DNA from: Brachybacterium sillae
Lineage (GTDB): Bacteria; Actinomycetota; Actinomycetes; Actinomycetales; Dermabacteraceae
Assembly (NCBI RefSeq): GCF_025028335.1
Contig: NZ_JAFEUW010000001.1
Coordinates: forward strand, 2,542,001-2,606,000
Length of the DNA: 64,000 nucleotides
Reading direction: 5' to 3'
Below, in pieces: positions 12,694 to 22,397 of the stretch (its first letter is position 1; the number at the start of each line of letters is the position of its first letter). The notes beneath the pieces are model-generated. The model searched no databases. It was not told the DNA's origin and saw only the letters and a list, made by a program, of their open reading frames with translations. Made by a program: the position numbers and the translations under genes.

Positions 12694-13290
12694 TTACGCA
12701 GCCGTCGGCAGCGTAGCGGTGTTGCCGGTCTCGTAGAGGACCGGCGGGACGTAGCGGCACCACGAATGGCGTCGCTTGGTGTTGTAGGGGACGAGCCACC
12801 TGAAGACCTGCCGGCGGCAGACCAGTTCGTTGCTCCAGCAGGCGGCGTCTTGGAGAACCTCGCGCTTCATGGTGGCGTTGAACGACTCGGCCAACGCGTT
12901 GTCCGCGCTGGACCCGACGGCGCCCATGGACTGGGTGACGCCGAGCTTGCGACAGAGCTTGGCGTAGTCCTTCGAGCAGTAGACCGACCCGTGGTCGCTG
13001 TGAAATACGCTGCCCTTGAGGGTGCCCCGGGTTGCGGAGGCGGCCTTCAACGCGTCCTCGACGAGCTCGGTACGCATGTGGTCAGCGATGGCCCACCCGA
13101 CAAGCCGACGGCTGTAGCAGTCGATCACGGTCGCCAGGTAGAGGTTCGTGCCGTCGGCGATCGGCAGATAGGTGATGTCGCCGACGTAGCGCAGCCCTGG
13201 CGCCGGGGCGGTGAAGTCGCTCTTGAGCAGGTCGGGGTACTTCTGGCCAGACGGTTCGGGGATCGTGGTCCGCACCCGCCGCTTCTTCAC
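12694..13290 (-). pseudogene. IS3-family transposase OrfB, catalytic part only
   Basis: 198 residues from an internal GTG; the reading frame is open further upstream (LQGIRGYV) without a credible start. An rve integrase core is present with the DDE residues: Asp in VGDITYLP, Asp in VFHSDHGS and Glu in NALAESFNA. The end is RRHSWCRYVPPVLYE. Normal OrfB proteins are 280-300 residues with an N-terminal helix-turn-helix, which is absent here. It is a 5'-truncated fragment. Confidence 0.8.
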
Positions 13291-13356
13291 ATAGCCCCGG
13301 ATTCCTTGCAGCCGCGGTGCCGACGTGCTCGGCCAGCCCGTCGACGGCCGGGTTGA

Positions 13357-13761
13357 TCACCGCGGCGACCGCGGCGGCTTGTCCGCGCTCTCGGAGGGCG
13401 TCTCCAAGAGCGCGTGTGCCTTTCCCATCAGGTCCAGCGCCGCCCTGGTCCTGGCCAGCTCGGCCTCGGCCTTCTCCGCCCGGGCCCGTAGCGCCTGCAG
13501 CTCCCGCTCGCGCCGGTCCCGCGGCTTGCTGCCCAGCCCGGACAGCGAGCCGGCGGCCGCGGCCTTGCGCCACTCGATGATGTGGGAGGTGTACAGGCCC
13601 TCCCGGCGCAGGATCTCCCCCCGCCCAGAGCGGTCCGCGGCGTCGTACTCGGCCAGGATCGCCGCTTTGAACTCGGCGGTGAACGTCCGCCTCTTGGGCC
13701 GGTCAGCACGAGGAGCCATAGCCCCATCATCGGTGCCGACGTCAGCAACCGTCATCGTCAT
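13357..13761 (-). CDS. IS3-family transposase OrfA
   Basis: 134 residues. Helix-turn-helix of the IS3 OrfA type (RRTFTAEFKAAILAEYDAA...EILRREGLYTSHIIEWRKA) followed by a leucine-zipper-like coiled coil (RERELQALRARAEKAEAELARTR, seen in parts). The protein ends in LLETPSESADKPPRSPR, where a longer OrfA/OrfB fusion by frameshifting would normally begin. It is intact as an ORF, but its partner OrfB is not present in full. Confidence 0.75.
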   Translation of the reverse strand: MTMTVADVGTDDGAMAPRADRPKRRTFTAEFKAAILAEYDAADRSGRGEILRREGLYTSHIIEWRKAAAAGSLSGLGSKPRDRRERELQALRARAEKAEAELARTRAALDLMGKAHALLETPSESADKPPRSPR

Positions 13762-14344: not shown

Positions 14345-14755
14345 TCAGCCGATCGAGGCGAGCAGCTCGGCGCAGGCCTTCTCGCAGCGTCGGCAGGCCT
14401 CGGCACAGACGTTGCAGTGCTCGTGCATGCCGGCGTGCTTCTCGCACTCCTCGGCGCAGGAACGGCACGCTGCCCGACACGCCTCGAGCAGAGCACGGTT
14501 CAGGGCAACGTTGGTGCCCGTCTGACGGGACAGGACCCGACCGGTCGTCGCGCAGACGTCGGCGCAGTCCTGGTTCAGGCGAATGCACTGGGTCAGCTCC
14601 GCCACCATGTCCTCGGCCAAGCAGGCGTCCGCGCAGGCGGTGCAGGTCTGGGCACACTCGAAGCAAGCCTCGATGCACTCAGCGAGCTTCTGCTGGTCGA
14701 TGCTGCCGAGGTCCTTGGGGTAGGTCTGAAGCATGGATGCGACGTGATGGGTCAT
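14345..14755 (-). CDS. Four-helix-bundle copper-storage-type protein (DUF326, Csp3-like)
   Basis: 136 residues with 18 cysteines spaced along amphipathic helices (AECIEACFECAQTCTAC; DCADVC; EACRAACRSCAEEC; CNVCAEACRRC) plus conserved histidines. This is the pattern of DUF326 / Csp proteins, whose four-helix bundles store many Cu(I) ions. No signal peptide is visible, so it should be cytosolic, like Csp3. Start ATG 14755 has AAGGAG upstream. It stands divergent from the ydhK-cueP-tlpA-ccdA operon within the copper cluster, which supports a copper role. No binding data can be inferred from sequence. Confidence 0.88.
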   Translation of the reverse strand: MTHHVASMLQTYPKDLGSIDQQKLAECIEACFECAQTCTACADACLAEDMVAELTQCIRLNQDCADVCATTGRVLSRQTGTNVALNRALLEACRAACRSCAEECEKHAGMHEHCNVCAEACRRCEKACAELLASIG

Positions 14756-14976
14756 GGTTCTGCTCCTTCTCGCTCCGAACGGACCGGCGGATAGCGGCCC
14801 GCCCTGACGACGATAGTCAGGCCATCACGAGAGACGGAAGCGAGTGGACCGTGCGTTCGGAGGCAGGACGAAGAGACTGGTCAGCGCTGTGCTCAAGACA
14901 TCGAGACGTGATCTTGAGGGGACCTTGATCTGGGGGTCCTAGGCTCGTGCAAAATGTCCTCTGGCTAGGAGAAATC
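14756..14976. other. Divergent promoter region of the copper genes
   Basis: 220 bp between the divergent DUF326 and ydhK genes. It must carry both promoters. CTTGAGGGG/CTTGATCTG-like stretches are present near 14911-14935, but no convincing operator palindrome was found. Confidence 0.35.
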
Positions 14977-15573
14977 ATGCGTTCTCGTCGCTCTTTCGGT
15001 CGTTTCGCGGCGGTCGTCGTCACCGGTGCGATTGTGCTTGCCGGATGCACTGACAGCGGGTCTGACGAAGGTCAGACCTCGGGCGGGTCGGCGGCGGCCG
15101 AGACGTCCGAAGCGTCCGATAGTGGCGGCCACGGGGGCATGGAGCATCCGATGGATGGTGGCCCGGCACCGGAGGGGATGGCACCGGCGGAGGATCCCGA
15201 GTTCCCTGTCGGCACGGAGGTGACGCTCACGGCGGACCACATGGAGGGCATGGAGGGCGCGACGGCGACGATCTCCGGTGCCTTCGACACCACCACGTAC
15301 GCGGTCAGCTTCACCCCGACCGATGGTGGCGATCCGGTCACCGACCACAAGTGGGTTGTTCACGAGGAGCTCGAGGACCCGGGCGAGGCACCGCTGGCGG
15401 AGGGCACCGAGGTGGTGATCATCGCCGATCACATGGCGGGTATGGAGGGTGCTGAGGCCACCATCGACAGTGCCACCGAGGAGACCGTGTACATGGTCGA
15501 CTTCGAGGCCGACGGGATGATGATGACGAACCACAAGTGGGTCGTCGAGAGCGAGATCGAGCCCCTCCAGTGA
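14977..15573 (+). CDS. ydhK: YdhK/DUF1541-family lipoprotein
   Basis: 198 residues from ATG 14977 (AGGAGA six bases upstream). The signal peptide has lipobox LAGC (Cys24), followed by a Ser/Glu/Met/His-rich linker (GGHGGMEHPMDGG). Two tandem copies of the YdhK domain follow: EVTLTADHMEGMEGATATI...DHKWVVHEE, then EVVIIADHMAGMEGAEATI...NHKWVVESE. Met and His in each DHMxGMxGA motif are plausible Cu(I) ligands (inference). The family often sits next to copper ATPases. The protein is anchored on the outer face of the membrane. It overlaps cueP by GTGA. Confidence 0.85.
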   Translation: MRSRRSFGRFAAVVVTGAIVLAGCTDSGSDEGQTSGGSAAAETSEASDSGGHGGMEHPMDGGPAPEGMAPAEDPEFPVGTEVTLTADHMEGMEGATATISGAFDTTTYAVSFTPTDGGDPVTDHKWVVHEELEDPGEAPLAEGTEVVIIADHMAGMEGAEATIDSATEETVYMVDFEADGMMMTNHKWVVESEIEPLQ

Positions 15574-16223
15574 ACTCCCCGGCAAGACCGCGTAGCGCGT
15601 TGGGTCCCTCCGGCGGTGGATCCCGCCGCGGGATCGGCCAGCTGCCCCGACGATCACTCTTGATCGGTGTCGGACTGCTCCCGTTCGTGGTCGCTGGCTG
15701 TGGGATCCGCGGAGCTGAGGACGCTCCCGTCACGGGAGATGAGGACCTGCTCCGGGAACATGGGTTCGCTGACGCCGACGCACAGGAGATCATCGACCAG
15801 CTTGAAGCGCTCCCGGTGGCTGAGCGACCGCAGAACCTGATCGCCAGCGTCACCGCGACATCCCTTCAGCTCAGTGACGATGCAGGGCGCGAGGCCGAGC
15901 TGCCCCTTCCCGAGGACCAGTTCTACTTGTCGGTGGCCCCGTTCGTCGAGACCACCCACGAGTGCGCCTTCCACAGCCTGACCACGTGCCGCGGAGAACT
16001 GCGCAGCCGCGAGCTCACCGTGAGCGTGGTCGACAGCAGCTCGGGCGAGGTCCTTGAGGAGGGCACTCGCACCACGCACGACAACGGGTTTGTCGGTTTC
16101 TGGTTGCCGCGCGGGATCACCGCCGAGCTCACGTGCGCCCTCGAGGACGTCACAGGGACCGCGTCCATCTCGACCCAGGCGGAGGATGATCTGACCTGTC
16201 TGACCAGTCTCCAGCTGACGTGA
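15570..16223 (+). CDS. cueP: CueP-family extracytoplasmic copper-binding lipoprotein
   Basis: 217 residues from GTG 15570. Arg-rich N-terminus (QLPRRSLLIG), hydrophobic segment and lipobox VAGC (Cys44). The mature part carries CueP hallmarks: LPVAERPQNLIASVTA, HSLTTCRGEL, the strand pair DNGFVGFWLPRGI, and the C-terminal DDLTCLTSLQL. In Salmonella CueP is a major periplasmic copper protein; the conserved Cys pair is implicated in copper binding and redox. This one is membrane-tethered, as expected without an outer membrane. It is translated from the ydhK stop (GTGA), with a TlpA/CcdA pair just downstream. Confidence 0.88.
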   Translation: MNSPARPRSALGPSGGGSRRGIGQLPRRSLLIGVGLLPFVVAGCGIRGAEDAPVTGDEDLLREHGFADADAQEIIDQLEALPVAERPQNLIASVTATSLQLSDDAGREAELPLPEDQFYLSVAPFVETTHECAFHSLTTCRGELRSRELTVSVVDSSSGEVLEEGTRTTHDNGFVGFWLPRGITAELTCALEDVTGTASISTQAEDDLTCLTSLQLT

Positions 16224-16258
16224 GCAGGTGAAGCACCCGGTCCGCCTTCTGGCATTCG

Positions 16259-16879
16259 GTGGTCAGCCCAACTGGGCGGAGCGTGACACCACGCCTGAGT
16301 CGTCGGACCACGCTCCGACTGGGCGGGAGCCTGCTCGTCCTCGCGCCCCTTCTTGCGGCGTGCAGCAGTTCTTCGGACGCCGCGAGCGAGGCGAACGCCG
16401 GGTACGTCTCCGGCGATGGTGTCGTCGTCGAGATCCCCCCGGAGGGACGCGCCGATCCTCTGGAGATTCGGGGAACCACCGACGACGGCGACGACTTCGA
16501 CTCCACGGCGCTGCGCGGTGCACCCTTGCTGATCAACGTCTGGTATGCGTCGTGTCCGCCATGCCGGGTTGAAGCGCCGGCGCTGAAGGCCGTGCACGCC
16601 GAATACGGCTCCCTGGGCGTGCAATTTGTGGGCGCGAACACCCGAGATAAGGCCGGGCCGGCTGCCGCGTTCGAGGAGACCTTCGGGATCACCTATCCAT
16701 CGATCCCAGACCCCGACGGGGCCGTGATCGCGTCGATGGACGGCAGCGTCTCGCCCAACGCGGTCCCCACGACGTTGATCCTCGATGCTGAAGGGCGAGT
16801 AGCTGCCCGGATCACGGGCGCGGCCGACCAGAGCACCCTGGAGAGTCTCCTGGACGCCGTGCTGGAGGAGGGTGCCTGA
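16259..16879 (+). CDS. tlpA: TlpA/ResA-like thiol-disulfide oxidoreductase lipoprotein
   Basis: 206 residues. N-terminal RLSRRTTLRLGG signal with lipobox LAAC (Cys35), then a thioredoxin-like domain with INVWYASCPPCRVEAP (CPPC at 99-102), a FVGANTRDKAG strand and cis-Pro AVPTTLIL. It is expected to reduce disulfides on the outside of the membrane, with electrons from CcdA, which is encoded next. Starts at GTG 16259 or GTG 16283 are both possible. It lies 35 bp after cueP in a copper operon, so CueP may be its client; a cytochrome c role is the alternative. Confidence 0.85.
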   Translation: MVSPTGRSVTPRLSRRTTLRLGGSLLVLAPLLAACSSSSDAASEANAGYVSGDGVVVEIPPEGRADPLEIRGTTDDGDDFDSTALRGAPLLINVWYASCPPCRVEAPALKAVHAEYGSLGVQFVGANTRDKAGPAAAFEETFGITYPSIPDPDGAVIASMDGSVSPNAVPTTLILDAEGRVAARITGAADQSTLESLLDAVLEEGA

Positions 16880-17646
16880 TGGGTGAAATGTTCGCCACCA
16901 CCGTGCTGAGTGGGCCCCTGGCCGTGGCGCTCCTGCTGTCGATGGTGGCCGGTCTGGTCGCGTTCCTCTCCCCGTGCGTGCTGCCGGTGGTTCCTGGCTA
17001 CCTCGGATACATCACCGGCCTCACCGGACAGAACACCAGCCCGCGCAGTCCCAGCGATCCGGGTGAGCGTCCAGGGCGTTTGGTCGCCGGCGCGGTGCTG
17101 TTTGTCGCCGGGTTCACCGCGGTATTCCTGGTCATCGGCGGATTCGTCGGCGCGATCGGGGCGCTGATCGTCCAGTACACCAGCGCGATCAATCGGATCT
17201 CCGGGGTGCTGGTCATCCTCATGGGCCTGGTGTTCGTGGGGATCTTCCCCCGGCTCTCGGGTGAGAAACGGATCCGGAAGCGCCCCGATGCCGGACTCGC
17301 CGGCGCACCTTTGCTTGGGATCACGTTCGGCTTCTCCTGGACCCCGTGCATCGGCCCGACGTTCGCCGCGGTCGCGGCGCTCAGCCTCGGGGAGGCTTCT
17401 GCCAGCCGCGGCGCCCTCCTCGCCTTCGGTTACGCGATCGGGCTCGGGGTCCCGTTCATCCTCTTCGCCCTCGTGTTCCGGCGAGCCCTGGGCATCTCCA
17501 GAGTGCTGTCCCGGCATCGCCGCACGCTGCAGATCGTCGGCGGGTCCGTCCTGATCACCATCGGGCTGCTGCTGGTCTCCGGGGTGTGGGAGCAGTGGAT
17601 GGCATTGCTGCAGGTACGAGTCGGTAACTTCACCACGATCGTCTAA
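16879..17646 (+). CDS. ccdA: CcdA-type cytochrome c biogenesis / thiol-electron transport protein
   Basis: 255 residues with six predicted membrane helices. The first conserved Cys is in AFLSPCVLPVVPGYLGYI and the second in FGFSWTPCIGPTFAAV, as in CcdA/DsbD-beta. CcdA passes electrons from cytosolic thioredoxin across the membrane to extracytoplasmic thioredoxin-like proteins. It overlaps the tlpA stop (TGATG), so the pair is made together. No other cytochrome c maturation gene (resB, resC) is nearby, which argues for service to the copper lipoproteins. Confidence 0.9.
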   Translation: MGEMFATTVLSGPLAVALLLSMVAGLVAFLSPCVLPVVPGYLGYITGLTGQNTSPRSPSDPGERPGRLVAGAVLFVAGFTAVFLVIGGFVGAIGALIVQYTSAINRISGVLVILMGLVFVGIFPRLSGEKRIRKRPDAGLAGAPLLGITFGFSWTPCIGPTFAAVAALSLGEASASRGALLAFGYAIGLGVPFILFALVFRRALGISRVLSRHRRTLQIVGGSVLITIGLLLVSGVWEQWMALLQVRVGNFTTIV

Positions 17647-17672: not shown

Positions 17673-18812
17673 TCAGCGGTCAGCGGTCGCTCCAGGAAGC
17701 CGGATGGTGAAGGTGGCTCCCTGTCCGGGCCCCTCACTGGCTGCGGACATGGTTCCACCGTGCGCATCGACCAGGGCGCGGCTGATCGTCAGACCGATAC
17801 CTGACCCGGAGTCCTCACGGGTGCGAGCGCTGTCGGCGCGGAAGAAACGTTCGAACAGGCGTGACCGGTCCTCGGCGGTGAAACCCTCGCCGTTGTCCGC
17901 CACAGAGATCACCACGGTGCCGCCCTCCATCGTGGCCGAAAGCGTGACGGTGCCTCCGGGCGAGGTGTGCCGCAGGGCATTGCTCAGGAGGTTTCCGAGT
18001 ACCTGGGCGAGGCGGTCCGGGTCGGCGTGAATGATCGGTGATCGGCGCATAACGAAATCTCGTCGCAATGCCACACCCGCTGCCTCGAACCTCTCCTCCC
18101 ATTCCTGGAGTGTTGAGCCCAGCAGGTCGCGGACCGACGTTGGCCGCAGCTCGACCGGGAGCTGTCCCTCTTCGGCACGGGACACCTCGCTGATGTCGTC
18201 GGTCAGCCGGGACAGGCGTATGGTCTGACCGGCAAGGATGGGCATGGCCGCCTCCGGCTCGATGACACCATCAGCCATCGCCTCGTGATGTGCCGAGAGA
18301 GTAGCAATGGGAGTACGTAGCTCGTGGGCGAGGTCAGAGAGCAGCCGGCGGCGATTCTCTTCGACGGCATCTAGGCGTGCAGCCATGTCGTTGAGCGTGG
18401 CGGCCAGAGAGTCCAGCTCGGTTCCCGCGCCGAGGGCGGGCACCCGAGTGGAGTAGTGGCCTCGGGAGAGTTCGTCCACGGCCAGGGTGAGGCGGTGGAG
18501 CGTCTGCCGGAGTCGTCGCGCCAGTCTCCAGGTGACCAGGCCTGCCGCTAGGAGGGAGACCACCAGTCCGACCCCCAGGGCGAGGGCGAGAGCGTCACGG
18601 TAGGCGCGCTCGATATGCAGAATCTCAGCGCTGCCCACCGGAAGAGCAGTCTGGAGCAGGTGATAGTGGAAGACGGCGGGTCCGATCATCACCGTCAGAG
18701 CGGTGATGCTGACGGCGCCGGCACACAGCACGATGAGCTGGCCGATCATCAAACGTGAGGCGAGGCTCGTGCCGGGGCGGATCGTTCTGGCCGATGAGCG
18801 GGGATCAGTCAC
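17673..18812 (-). CDS. Two-component sensor histidine kinase (copper cluster)
   Basis: 379 residues from GTG 18812, four bases after the regulator stop. Two membrane helices (about 21-44 and 73-95) enclose only a short external loop with His residues (FHYHLLQ). HAMP follows, then HisKA with phospho-acceptor His163 in LAHELRTP, then HATPase with NLLSNALRHT, VADNGEGF and GSGIGLTISRAL. The short sensor loop suggests detection in or near the membrane. It lies last in the HMA-copB-regulator-kinase operon, so Cu or Ag sensing of the CopS/CusS type is likely, but the ligand is inferred from context only. Confidence 0.88.
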   Translation of the reverse strand: MTDPRSSARTIRPGTSLASRLMIGQLIVLCAGAVSITALTVMIGPAVFHYHLLQTALPVGSAEILHIERAYRDALALALGVGLVVSLLAAGLVTWRLARRLRQTLHRLTLAVDELSRGHYSTRVPALGAGTELDSLAATLNDMAARLDAVEENRRRLLSDLAHELRTPIATLSAHHEAMADGVIEPEAAMPILAGQTIRLSRLTDDISEVSRAEEGQLPVELRPTSVRDLLGSTLQEWEERFEAAGVALRRDFVMRRSPIIHADPDRLAQVLGNLLSNALRHTSPGGTVTLSATMEGGTVVISVADNGEGFTAEDRSRLFERFFRADSARTREDSGSGIGLTISRALVDAHGGTMSAASEGPGQGATFTIRLPGATADR

Positions 18813-18816
18813 GCCC

Positions 18817-19530
18817 TCACCCCTTCCCCATCCGGTACCCGATACCGCGGACCGTGGTGACATACCGTGCCGAACCCGCTGTCTCGTCCAGTTTTCGTCG
18901 CAGGTTGGCAATATGCACATCGACGAGATGGTCATCTCCGATCCAGGAACCACCCCAGACGGCTTCCATCAGCTGGTGGCGGCTGAAGACCTGGCCCGGC
19001 CGACGGGCCAGAGTCATAAGCAGTCCCCTCTCGGTGGGGGTCAGCGGGACTGGTTGGCCAGCGAGCCGCACCTCCTGGGCGGCCGTATCGATCTCAAGCT
19101 CTCCGAACGCGCGCACCGTGCCCGAAGGCGCGGTCCCGGGCTCGCCGCGGGGCCGCCGCAGCACGGCCTGGACCCGGGCGACAAGTTCACGCACGCTGAA
19201 CGGTTTGGTGAGGTAGTCATCCGCGCCCACCGACAGTCCCACCAGACGATCAACCTCCTCTGATCGCGCCGTCGTGATCAGCACGTAGCAGTCGGAGAAG
19301 GCGCGGATCCTCCGCATCACCTCCAAGCCATCGAGGCCAGGCAGGCCGAGATCGAGGATGATCACGTCCGGTGACAAGGCGCGGGCTACCTCCACCGCCT
19401 CCGGACCGCTTCGCGCGCTCCCCGTGGCGTAGCCGGCCTTCACGAGGTATGCCTGCACGACGTCCGAGAGCGCGACTTCGTCTTCGACAACGAGAACCGT
19501 CGCTGCAACTCGAGCCGATTCACTCCTCAT
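18817..19530 (-). CDS. OmpR/PhoB-family response regulator (copper cluster)
   Basis: 237 residues. Receiver domain with acidic pocket VVEDE, phospho-Asp60 in ILDLGLPGLDG and Lys in YLTKPFSVREL. The C-terminal winged helix has PLTPTERGLLMTLARRPGQVFSRHQL and DVHIANLRRKLDE. Its ATG lies 11 bases inside the 3' end of copB, so translation is coupled. It is cognate to the adjacent kinase. Targets probably include this operon and the divergent lipoprotein operon, though no direct-repeat box was identified. Confidence 0.9.
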   Translation of the reverse strand: MRSESARVAATVLVVEDEVALSDVVQAYLVKAGYATGSARSGPEAVEVARALSPDVIILDLGLPGLDGLEVMRRIRAFSDCYVLITTARSEEVDRLVGLSVGADDYLTKPFSVRELVARVQAVLRRPRGEPGTAPSGTVRAFGELEIDTAAQEVRLAGQPVPLTPTERGLLMTLARRPGQVFSRHQLMEAVWGGSWIGDDHLVDVHIANLRRKLDETAGSARYVTTVRGIGYRMGKG

Positions 19531-21952
19531 GGGCTCCAGTCTGGTCTCCGTTCCTGGGCGCCGTGGAGGTCCTGCTCGAGTCCGACCGGGAGCTGGCCGA
19601 GCCCGCGCGGCTCGAAGACTGGGTCGTCGACACCGAGGTCGAGCTCTCGCGGCCGGCCAGGCGCGCCGCGCTCTTGGCAGGGGTCAGATCCAGTCGGCGC
19701 AGCATCTGCGCATTCAAGGCCACAACGACAGTGGACAACGACATCAGGATCGCGCCGACCGACATGGGCAGCACGAACCCGATCGGCGCCAGGACACCGG
19801 CGGCCAGCGGAACGGCGGCGATGTTGTACCCGGCAGCCCACCACAGGTTCTGCTTCATCTTGCGGTAACTGGCACGGGAGAGCTGGATTACCGAGAGCAC
19901 CGAGCGGGGATCGTCGGAGGCCAGGATCACGCCGGCGGAGGCGATCGCGACGTCGGTGCCGGCACCGATCGCGATGCCGACGTCGGCCTGCGCGAGGGCG
20001 GGGGCATCGTTGACGCCGTCGCCGACCATCGCCACGGCTCGTCCGTCGCGCTGGAGCTCGAGGACCTTCTCGCTCTTGTGCTCCGGGCGCACCTGGGCGA
20101 AGACCTGGTCGATACCGAGCTCGCCGGCCACGGCGCGGGCAACGGGCTGGGCATCGCCCGTGATCATGACGACGCGGATTCCCAGCTCATGCAGGGCGTC
20201 GACGGCCTCGCGAGATTCCTGGCGCACTTCGTCGGCCAGGCCGATCGCTCCCGTGACCTGCCCGTCGAGGAGGACATGGAGGACGATCGCTCCGTCGGCC
20301 GACCACGACCCGGTCGCCGGCAGCGGCTGGTGACCGTGCTCGGCCAGCAGGTTGGGTCCGCCGACCTGGACGGTGCGCCCGTCCACGGTCGCGCTGACGC
20401 CGACTGCGGTGGTGGACTGGAACTCGGTGGCGCGCGGCACGTCGAGTCCGCGTTCCGCGGCAGCGGCGGCGATCGCCCGGGCGAGCGGGTGCTCGCTGTC
20501 GGCCTCGGCCGCGGCGGCCAGCGCGAGCAGCTCGTCCTCGTCCAGGGTGCCGACGGTGGTGACGTGGTTCAGGGCGGGCTCGCCCTTGGTCAGCGTGCCC
20601 GTCTTGTCGAACAGGACGGTGTCAATGGTGCGCATCCGCTCCAGGGCGGCGCGCTCCTTGACCAGGACGCCGCCCTTCGCGGCCCGCTCGGTCGAGATGG
20701 ACACCACCAGCGGGATCGCCAGACCTAGCGCGTGAGGGCAGGCGATGACCAGAACGGTGATCGCGCGGACCAGTGCACTCTCGGGCACCCCGACGACTGT
20801 CCACACGATCGCGGTGACGATCGCCGCGATCAGCGCGTACCAGAACAGCCAACCGGCGGCTCTGTCCGCGAGCAGCTGGGCCCGGGTCGTGGAGGATTGG
20901 GCGTTGGCGACCAGGCGCTGGATGCCGGACAGGGCGGTGTCCTCACCGATCGCGGTGACGCGCACGCGCAGCGCGTTGTCCGTGGCCACCGTGCCGGCGA
21001 CGACCTGATCACCGATCTCGCGACGCACGGGGCTGGACTCGCCGGTGATCATCGACTCGTCGACGTCGGCGCCACCATCGATGACTTCCCCGTCGGCCGG
21101 GACCCGGCCACCGGGTCGCACGATCACGACGTCTCCGAGCTGCAGCTCGGCCGGGGAAACCGCGACGATGTCCTCGCCCTCGATCTTCTCGGCCTGGTCG
21201 GGCAGGAGCGCGGCCAGGGAATCCAGCGCGGAGGAGGTCTGCGCGAGGGAGCGCATCTCGAGCCAGTGGCCCAGCAGCATGATCGCGATCAGGAGGGCGA
21301 GCTCCCACCAGAAATCGAGCTCGTGGGAGAGCAGTCCGAGGCTGGCGCCGAGCGAGGAGACGAAGGCGACCGTGATCGCCATCCCGATCAGGAGCATCAT
21401 GCCGGGCTTGCGGTCCCGGATCTCCTCGATCGCTCCGGTCAGGAACGGTCGACCGCCCCACAGGTACATGACCGTGCCCATGACCGGCGAGACCCACGGC
21501 ACCCAGGCCGCGTCCGGCAGCGCATAGCCGAGCAGGTCGGCGAACATCCCGTTCAGCAGTACCGTCGGGATAGCAAGGACGAGCATGATCCAGAACAGCC
21601 GACGGAACATCCCCACGTGATCACCATGACCCGCATGGCCCCCGTGACCCGACATGTCGTGCCCCGCGTGCGGGTCGTGGTGCTCGTGGCCCGTCATGTC
21701 GTGCTCACCGTGCCCGGTCATGTCATGGCCGGTGTGCGTGGCGGTCGGCAGGGCATGCCCCTCGTGCGCCATCTGCTCGGCATCGTAGCCGCCATGACGG
21801 TCCCCGCCCGGCGGAGCGTCCGCCGGGCCGTGTGGGCCCGTGCCGCGGTGATGCCCGTGCTGGGCCATGTCGTGCCCGGCGTGGTCGGGTTCGGGGGTAA
21901 CCGGGTGGTCGTGGCGGTGGTGGTGGGGGTGCTCATGGTGTCCCTTCCGCAA
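19520..21952 (-). CDS. copB: CopB-type heavy-metal (Cu/Ag) P1B-ATPase with His-rich N-terminus
   Basis: 810 residues as read from TTG 21952. The first 112 residues contain 30 histidines in GHDM/GHGxHDM-type repeats. The core has TGES, the membrane motif CPHALGLA (CPH, the CopB/P1B-3 type, not CPC of CopA), DKTGTLTKGEP, SEHPLARAI and GDGVNDAPALAQADVGIAIGAGTDVA (in parts), and the final helix MSLSTVVVAL. It pumps Cu or Ag out of the cytosol. A Ser-rich tail of 45 residues follows. The start is uncertain: ATG 21936 has a better Shine-Dalgarno (GGAAGGG) but is in another frame. One extra C in the C5 run after it would join the frames. Confidence 0.92.
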   Translation of the reverse strand: MRKGHHEHPHHHRHDHPVTPEPDHAGHDMAQHGHHRGTGPHGPADAPPGGDRHGGYDAEQMAHEGHALPTATHTGHDMTGHGEHDMTGHEHHDPHAGHDMSGHGGHAGHGDHVGMFRRLFWIMLVLAIPTVLLNGMFADLLGYALPDAAWVPWVSPVMGTVMYLWGGRPFLTGAIEEIRDRKPGMMLLIGMAITVAFVSSLGASLGLLSHELDFWWELALLIAIMLLGHWLEMRSLAQTSSALDSLAALLPDQAEKIEGEDIVAVSPAELQLGDVVIVRPGGRVPADGEVIDGGADVDESMITGESSPVRREIGDQVVAGTVATDNALRVRVTAIGEDTALSGIQRLVANAQSSTTRAQLLADRAAGWLFWYALIAAIVTAIVWTVVGVPESALVRAITVLVIACPHALGLAIPLVVSISTERAAKGGVLVKERAALERMRTIDTVLFDKTGTLTKGEPALNHVTTVGTLDEDELLALAAAAEADSEHPLARAIAAAAAERGLDVPRATEFQSTTAVGVSATVDGRTVQVGGPNLLAEHGHQPLPATGSWSADGAIVLHVLLDGQVTGAIGLADEVRQESREAVDALHELGIRVVMITGDAQPVARAVAGELGIDQVFAQVRPEHKSEKVLELQRDGRAVAMVGDGVNDAPALAQADVGIAIGAGTDVAIASAGVILASDDPRSVLSVIQLSRASYRKMKQNLWWAAGYNIAAVPLAAGVLAPIGFVLPMSVGAILMSLSTVVVALNAQMLRRLDLTPAKSAARLAGRESSTSVSTTQSSSRAGSASSRSDSSRTSTAPRNGDQTGAHEE

Positions 21953-21986: not shown

Positions 21987-22310
21987 TCAGGCGTCGGCCA
22001 CGGTGTAGCCGGCCTCCGCGACGGCGGCGCGGACGGCGGCCGGTGCGGCAGCTCCGGCCACGGTCACGGTGGAGATCCCACCGGGCGCCAGGTCGATCCG
22101 TACTTCCTCCACGCCCTCGAGAACGGTGATTGCCGTGGTCACGCTGTCGGCGCAGTGACCACAGGTCATGCCCCGCACCGGGTACGTCGTGGTCTCGGCC
22201 GCGGACGTCGCAGTCGCCTCAGCAGCGGCGCGGTCCTCCACCGGGGCGGTGGCGCAGCAGGAACAGCCGGTGGAAGCCATCGGCAGGGGTCGAAGTGTCT
22301 CGGGGCTCAT
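21987..22310 (-). CDS. copZ: Heavy-metal-associated (HMA) copper chaperone, CopZ-like
   Basis: 107 residues. The C-terminal 68 residues form an HMA fold with the Cu(I)-binding GMTCGHC loop and YTVADA end. The N-terminal extension of about 40 residues carries an extra STGCSCCATAP cluster, not part of ordinary CopZ and a possible second metal site. ATG 22310 is preceded by GAGGAG. First gene of the operon leading to copB, the regulator and the kinase. Expected to carry Cu(I) in the cytosol to the ATPase. Confidence 0.88.
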   Translation of the reverse strand: MSPETLRPLPMASTGCSCCATAPVEDRAAAEATATSAAETTTYPVRGMTCGHCADSVTTAITVLEGVEEVRIDLAPGGISTVTVAGAAAPAAVRAAVAEAGYTVADA

Positions 22311-22368: not shown

Positions 22369-22397
22369 GTTTTATACCCCCCGGGGGTATTTGGCAA
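22369..22397 (-). promoter_or_regulatory. Copper-responsive promoter with CsoR-type operator
   Basis: Minus-strand -35 TTGCCA (22397-22392) and -10 TATAAA/TAAAAC (22376-22369) flank a palindrome, ATACCCCC-C-GGGGGTAT (22374-22390). Two half-sites of TACCCCC facing each other are typical of CsoR-family operators in actinobacteria. The operator lies inside the promoter, so binding would block the polymerase. No csoR gene lies in the window. Confidence 0.7.

Follow-up and report, generated by a model that had tools for sequence, protein, structure and literature searches.

System II of cytochrome c maturation (TlpA/ResA–CcdA–ResB–CcsB) has a thiol-reducing arm in which electrons from thioredoxin are carried outward by CcdA and used by TlpA/ResA to reduce apocytochrome c. 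The copper operon examined here, in which genes for YdhK and CueP are followed by TlpA and CcdA, lies in a 64,000-nucleotide stretch of contig NZ_JAFEUW010000001.1 (positions 2,542,001 to 2,606,000; hereafter the window) of the 2.67-Mb genome of Brachybacterium sillae. Its TlpA–CcdA pair is a paralogue of the System II thiol arm with the same gene order, but it sits in a copper operon and no ResB–CcsB was found next to it. Phylogenetic analysis shows at least three independent recruitments of TlpA–CcdA to the neighbourhood of CueP, each of them, as judged from sequence relationships, from the cytochrome-maturation genes of the host lineage.

The ScsABCD–CueP system of Salmonella also ties a membrane thiol-electron carrier and a thioredoxin-fold protein to CueP and to copper tolerance (PMC8900818, available text). 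ScsB is, however, a three-domain relative of DsbD and ScsC is DsbA-like, whereas the window encodes a bare CcdA and a TlpA/ResA-type lipoprotein; no DsbA-like gene was found between CueP and the histidine kinase gene beyond CcdA, nor was the combination of a multi-domain ScsB with ScsC. In Corynebacterium glutamicum, CopRS, a copper P-type ATPase, cg3286 and TlpA share one copper-induced cop region (cg3281–cg3289, the CopRS regulon; PMC3140484, available text), and a cop region with tlpA is in this form already in print. By synteny with plasmid pLEW279b, cg3286 would be CueP. That region differs in having a multicopper oxidase gene between cg3286 and TlpA and a TlpA of the Corynebacterium type, and the main text of PMC3140484, as far as it is available, does not contain 'ccdA' and proposes no role for TlpA. 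The CopXL system of Staphylococcus aureus, in which CopL is a tandem DUF1541 protein, likewise sets a surface YdhK-type lipoprotein beside a copper ATPase, but CueP, TlpA and CcdA are not mentioned in the available text (PMC5947656). CueP-containing metal islands have been published as well (PMC12889094, available text). No description of CueP–TlpA–CcdA as one unit was found in titles and abstract openings of the open-licence literature, in agreement with the original prediction, made from the letters of the window alone, which knew of none for the four genes.

That prediction had also read the four genes as one operon in a copper setting, and both points hold. The genes run on the + strand at 14977–17646, their families confirmed by profile; YdhK and CueP overlap by 4 nucleotides (GTGA), TlpA and CcdA by 1 nucleotide (TGATG), and 35 nucleotides separate CueP from TlpA. 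Their neighbours are a gene for a copper-storage protein, a CopRS-type pair and CopZ–CopA. YdhK has the two DUF1541 domains of YdhK/CopL proteins together with a lipobox-like Cys24, and cysteines of this kind were likewise recognised by eye in CueP (Cys44) and TlpA (Cys35). CueP scored 167 bits with PF21172 (cut-off 27), 177 bits with NF038094 (cut-off 60) and, short of the cut-off of 195, 123 bits with the narrower model NF038095; its Cys132, Cys140 and Cys210, aligned with PDB entry 4gqz, are invariant across 11 aligned rows. The PDB relatives of TlpA by sequence are thioredoxin-fold proteins, headed by 4pq1, 3or5 and ResA (1st9), and the 255-residue CcdA has DsbD_TM as its sole domain match; a TlpA/ResA-type thioredoxin with CXXC and a CcdA with two conserved cysteines are the constituents of the System II thiol arm. 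Twin arginines precede the lipobox in the signal sequences of CueP (PRRSLL, 15570–15700) and TlpA (SRRTTL, 16259–16365), so export of both by the twin-arginine route may be possible.

Exactly two places in the genome match DsbD_TM, namely the window CcdA and one at a housekeeping TlpA–CcdA–ResB–CcsB locus. Identity to this housekeeping pair is 60% for the window CcdA and 55% for the window TlpA; to the pair of Corynebacterium copper operons it is only 37–38 and 29–30%, respectively. The genome also encodes a c-type cytochrome, in one frame with two PF13442 matches. The earlier remark that no cytochrome c genes are near is therefore true of the window but misses the housekeeping genes, as well as the ResB–CcsB found directly behind copper TlpA–CcdA in two Serinicoccus loci and four Corynebacterium plasmids.

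Maximum-likelihood trees were built from 74 CcdA and 70 TlpA rows, leaving out operons with a frame break in TlpA and including the TlpA of locus L192 as a partial row. Thirteen Brachybacterium copper copies grouped with housekeeping copies of the Dermabacteraceae (joint-group support 100/100 for CcdA and 100/98 for TlpA), two Serinicoccus copper copies fell among Serinicoccus copies in both trees, and five Corynebacterium-type copper copies adjoined the other copy of genome G831 (100/99 and 100/96). G831, a Corynebacterium-like genome, itself holds a copper copy, the TlpA of which is 99% identical to that of C. marinum. When all copper copies were forced into one clade, the approximately unbiased (AU) test rejected the constraint (p-AU 2.9e-40 for CcdA and 0.0011 for TlpA), and pairwise AU tests of shared origin gave 1.5e-4 to 1.7e-6, all on 35 rows selected from the larger trees once these had been inspected. 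A single ancient mobile CueP–TlpA–CcdA cassette was thus rejected by trees and AU tests alike. A quick tree of 123 distinct CueP rows requires six changes in TlpA linkage. Because the trees give a host-lineage origin, and because the pair is damaged or deleted at loci where CueP stays, TlpA–CcdA tracks the host and not CueP.

The explanation that we favour, with about even confidence, is that TlpA–CcdA acts as a copper-responsive spare of the thiol-reducing arm of System II, and that assembly of the host's c-type cytochromes is its main beneficiary. YdhK/CopL and CueP would bind copper outside the membrane, CcdA would move electrons through the membrane from thioredoxin in the cytoplasm to TlpA, in the direction that we infer, and the lipoprotein TlpA would re-reduce exported cysteine pairs, the whole operon presumably being copper-induced through CopR. 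Since copper oxidises or occupies exported cysteine pairs, we propose that the operon adds reducing capacity at high copper. The main client would most likely be the CXXCH of apocytochromes, with the CueP cysteines and other surface thiols as possible further clients. Apocytochrome c is preferred to CueP in this role because the affinities of the pair lie with the host rather than with CueP, because heme-ligation genes were co-recruited in two of the three recruitments (Serinicoccus and Corynebacterium), and because the pair has been lost from islands sitting in other hosts. The literature makes a link between copper and cytochrome c maturation plausible: under copper, the cop-region tlpA of C. 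glutamicum rose about 236-fold and the housekeeping ccs genes (ccsA, ccsB and cg0520) more mildly, 3.6- to 4.6-fold (PMC3140484), and PMC6247083 states that copper hinders the assembly of cytochrome c in a copI mutant of Rubrivivax (both as far as their texts are available). The repeated independent addition beside CueP suggests that the thiol step of cytochrome maturation needs help in excess copper. If so, Gram-positive copper tolerance would be tied, by way of repeated evolution, to the reduction of thiols for cytochrome c assembly as one specific step in the envelope, and copper damage outside the Gram-positive membrane would become a question testable through two genes. A caution would also follow, in that a TlpA–CcdA pair adjoining CueP is not necessarily a CueP reductase.

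A dedicated reductase, keeping the CueP cysteines reduced for copper binding or reduction in the manner of a Gram-positive analogue of Salmonella Scs–CueP, is what the original prediction had proposed, and we consider it rather unlikely. The evolutionary link it implied stands, CueP being the common copper gene in all three recruitments; the invariance of the three CueP cysteines would suit such a client, as would the altered TlpA residues beside the active site described below. The title of a 2015 paper cited in PMC9974433 links the DsbA of C. diphtheriae to CueP, and this DsbA is reported to reduce CueP. The Salmonella precedent is that ScsC, which ScsB maintains in the reduced state, interacts with CueP (PMC8900818, available text). 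The choice of CueP as client is, however, disfavoured by the host-lineage origin of the pair, by its damage or loss where CueP remains, by the co-recruitment of ResB–CcsB in two lineages and by the 64 of the best 80 of 394 CueP loci in which every one of the linked genes scored (YdhK, TlpA, CcdA, ResB) is absent. The role of CueP in Salmonella, supply of copper to Cu,Zn superoxide dismutase, was rejected here, as the genome has no SodC (PF00080) match.

The original prediction had suggested looking for the four families together in other genomes, and the set does recur. Within the family, 32 of 47 genomes have CueP, as against only 3 of 396 in a phylum-wide sample, one of them the genome of the window, and 16 of 397 in the order to which Dietzia belongs. 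Gene maps of the CueP loci were built from profile scans, and the locus sets (the best 80 of 394, the family and the order) overlap, such that some places are counted more than once. Among 41 CueP places in the family, 20 have YdhK, TlpA and CcdA, 3 have YdhK only, 1 has a TlpA remnant behind a multicopper oxidase and 17 have none; the pair was present at 1 of 20 further places from the phylum and order samples. The best 80 of 394 CueP loci, chosen by similarity to the window CueP, comprised 12 with YdhK, TlpA and CcdA (all Brachybacterium), 2 with TlpA, CcdA and ResB (Serinicoccus) and 2 with YdhK only, besides the unlinked ones. The strict four-gene set was thus confined to Brachybacterium among the loci examined, with a Csp match upstream in 18 of its 20 operons there. 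CcdA of the window type (at least 85% identity) occurs in 20 copies, every one within a CueP operon, in 18 of the 47 family genomes; three of these copies are in pieces, one piece in G018 lying on another contig. Chance neighbourhood was rejected on these counts (20/41 family places with all four genes, and 20/20 window-type CcdA copies in CueP operons).

Outside Brachybacterium, TlpA–CcdA follows CueP and precedes ResB–CcsB in Serinicoccus L061 and L096, and four Corynebacterium plasmids have the order CueP, multicopper oxidase, TlpA, CcdA, ResB, CcsB. Pfam confirmed ResB in L061, L096 and L123; NCBIfam assigned no family to it. In the 12 plasmids inspected of 24 CueP plasmid records, five others had no TlpA–CcdA pair, pLEW279b had a TlpA cut short after CueP and the oxidase, Rothia p2 had CueP and the oxidase plus a scar, and Rothia p3 had CueP with TrxA. 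CueP followed by a small thioredoxin was seen in Rothia (L122, 8638–8961), in Brachybacterium G007 and in a third genome, G493; the copies are nearly identical in the three genomes and could therefore be a mobile pair. They (L122, L255 and L283) were not counted as a fourth recruitment, since TrxA has no visible signal sequence, nor was the TlpA of L230 counted as a Dermabacteraceae case of CueP, multicopper oxidase and TlpA, as it is a remnant of a Corynebacterium-type island. In two Brachybacterium genomes, adjacent YdhK and CueP genes stand without TlpA–CcdA (L258 and L262), and the CueP of both has an extra cysteine in the region of Cys189 of the window CueP.

Median ratios of nonsynonymous to synonymous substitution (dN/dS) for the 20 Brachybacterium operons were 0.12 for YdhK, 0.26 for CueP, 0.13 for TlpA and 0.12 for CcdA, using only pairs with dS above 0.05, 15 one-frame copies of TlpA and 19 one-stretch copies of CcdA, some of them partial. 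These values show that TlpA–CcdA is under purifying selection. TlpA and CcdA are both full length in 13 of the 20 operons and damaged in 7: both are damaged in L240, CcdA is interrupted by an IS1380 element in L241 and broken near a contig end in L246 with the remainder on another contig, and TlpA lies in two frames at one common place in L248, L251, L252 and L253, the last of which also has an early stop in CcdA. The two-frame TlpA may be a shared break or an unusual reading site. The YdhK and CueP domains are whole in all 20 operons, with an odd CueP start in L253, and a 21st operon, L266, keeps YdhK–CueP with TlpA–CcdA reduced to a scar. Likewise, Corynebacterium-type islands in three Dermabacteraceae genomes (L230–L232), Rothia p2 and pLEW279b keep CueP with TlpA onward missing or cut at differing end points; their 93–98% DNA identity across genera points to transfer. 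The frequency of damage (7/20) is what would be expected if TlpA–CcdA were passengers with no copper role, but three independent recruitments beside the same gene, the low dN/dS and the overlapping genes make this highly improbable.

Several observations weigh against a spare thiol arm for cytochrome c. The Brachybacterium copper operons have no ResB–CcsB, and the damage in 7 of 20 of them argues that the pair is dispensable. Heme ligation is not always the part kept, since similarity in the G831 island stops after CcdA, leaving TlpA–CcdA without ResB–CcsB, and a third Serinicoccus CueP (L113) has no TlpA–CcdA alongside. The tree tool gave a long-branch warning that covered, among others, the Serinicoccus and Corynebacterium rows, so far joins in the trees are unsure; the near groupings relied on are starred. 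Finally, TlpAs of Brachybacterium metal operons (13 of 13 copper and 5 of 5 cadmium-type) differ at two sites from the Dermabacteraceae housekeeping TlpAs of the tree set (14 of 14): past the active site they have CPCRVE-type residues instead of CRKE, and in the cis-proline loop PTT instead of PST. These differences may mean a different client, although the direction of change is unsure because within the housekeeping group K and S seem to be the derived states. The CRVE region of the window TlpA is at 16553–16570, and CRVE and PTT also occur in the cadmium-type copies nested among housekeeping ones.

By analogy with Bradyrhizobium japonicum, where TlpA reduces the cysteines of cytochrome oxidase subunit II (PMC7558416, available text), TlpA might instead serve copper-site assembly of that subunit or of a multicopper oxidase. 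In the Corynebacterium type, CueP and TlpA are separated by a multicopper oxidase gene, many Brachybacterium have such a gene on the far side of CopR, and genes for SURF1 or a 'cytochrome c oxidase assembly protein' occur near CcdA on metal plasmids. No multicopper oxidase match was found within 9 kb of the window CueP, however, and CuA would be needed at low and high copper alike, making a copper-stress operon an odd place for its assembly; we regard this role as improbable.

A third TlpA–CcdA copy, with VKOR and DsbA-like genes, was found in five Brachybacterium loci (L183 in G442, L185 in G445, L198 in G447, L199 in G444 and L300 in G017), beside a metal P-type ATPase gene in the four loci whose stretch reaches far enough. 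It nests within the housekeeping Brachybacterium group in the trees and by this placement is a separate recruitment into another metal operon. Actinobacterial metal plasmids (L115, L117, L125, L129–L135 and L138) carry varying sets of extra LspA/Lnt, SURF1, oxidase assembly, ResB and VKOR/DsbA-like genes near metal genes and CcdA; 10 plasmid CcdA contexts were inspected among the 40 matches listed, of 376 records. TlpA–CcdA might also, with no specific client, serve to repair the wrong disulfides that copper produces in surface proteins generally. This would accord with DsbA-like, VKOR, TlpA or CcdA genes beside other metal genes in Brachybacterium metal islands and Micrococcales plasmids. We think it decidedly improbable, as every one of the 47 family genomes has at least one other CcdA match, 50–63% identical to the window CcdA, and so already possesses general reducing power; as the host-matched origin and the co-recruitment of ResB–CcsB point to cytochrome maturation; and as 1 of the 10 plasmid contexts (Streptomyces) has no metal gene. 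More tentatively than for the spare thiol arm itself, we suggest that actinobacterial copper operons repeatedly capture the host's own cytochrome c thiol arm, with or without heme ligation, beside CueP as a host-matched spare for a copper-poisoned step, and that this may be one case of a wider rule by which metal islands carry duplicates of metal-damaged envelope-assembly factors (TlpA–CcdA, VKOR–DsbA, ResB–CcsB, SURF1 with oxidase assembly genes, and LspA/Lnt).

The features of the copper region are collected in the table.

Table. Copper operon, neighbouring genes and putative operators, in window positions
Feature	Position	Strand	Evidence
Csp-type four-helix copper storage protein (DUF326), divergent from operon	14345..14755	-	PF03860 2.2e-12; TIGR04401 match below cut-off
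11-bp direct repeat ATCTTGA-N4-ACCTTGATC, OmpR/CopR-type box, likely CopR operator by resemblance	14911..14930	+	upstream of YdhK
YdhK/CopL-type lipoprotein, Met/His-rich, two DUF1541 domains	14977..15573	+	PF07563 9.3e-49, two stretches; PDB 4mdw 2.5e-43
CueP lipoprotein, GTG start overlapping YdhK stop	15570..16223	+	PF21172 2.4e-49; NF038094; PDB 4gqz 4e-28
TlpA/ResA-type lipoprotein thioredoxin, CPPC (Cys99, Cys102)	16259..16879	+	Redoxin PF08534 5.3e-18; PF00578
CcdA membrane electron carrier, Cys33 and Cys157	16879..17646	+	DsbD_TM PF02683 3.1e-8, 33.6 bits vs cut-off 27.1
Sensor histidine kinase (CopS by position), convergent with CcdA	17673..18953	-	PF02518, PF00512, PF00672
OmpR-family response regulator (CopR by position)	18817..19530	-	PF00072, PF00486
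Copper-translocating P-type ATPase, His-rich N-terminus	19520..21952	-	TIGR01511 580 bits vs cut-off 397
CopZ-like HMA-domain protein, upstream of ATPase	21990..22307	-	NF047957 7.4e-16, below cut-off
Palindrome-like ATACCCCCCGGGGGTAT, putative CsoR-type operator	22374..22390	.	upstream of CopZ-CopA-CopR-CopS

As the CopR-type box has a single match in the window with 0.22 expected by chance, which is not significant, it counts through its conservation only. The repeat was found upstream of YdhK in 14 of 14 scanned relatives (13 four-gene operons and L266) and is visible in 18 of 20 aligned upstream regions, L239 and L261 carrying it further upstream. The palindrome-like sequence is one that we take to be a CsoR-type operator. 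G+C content is 65–68% at 14–20 kb of the window versus 68–74% elsewhere in 8–29 kb, and IS3-type transposase frames lie just upstream of the copper region at 12694–13761 (12694–13290 above cut-off and 13360–13761 a weak match); together these are compatible with an acquired island.

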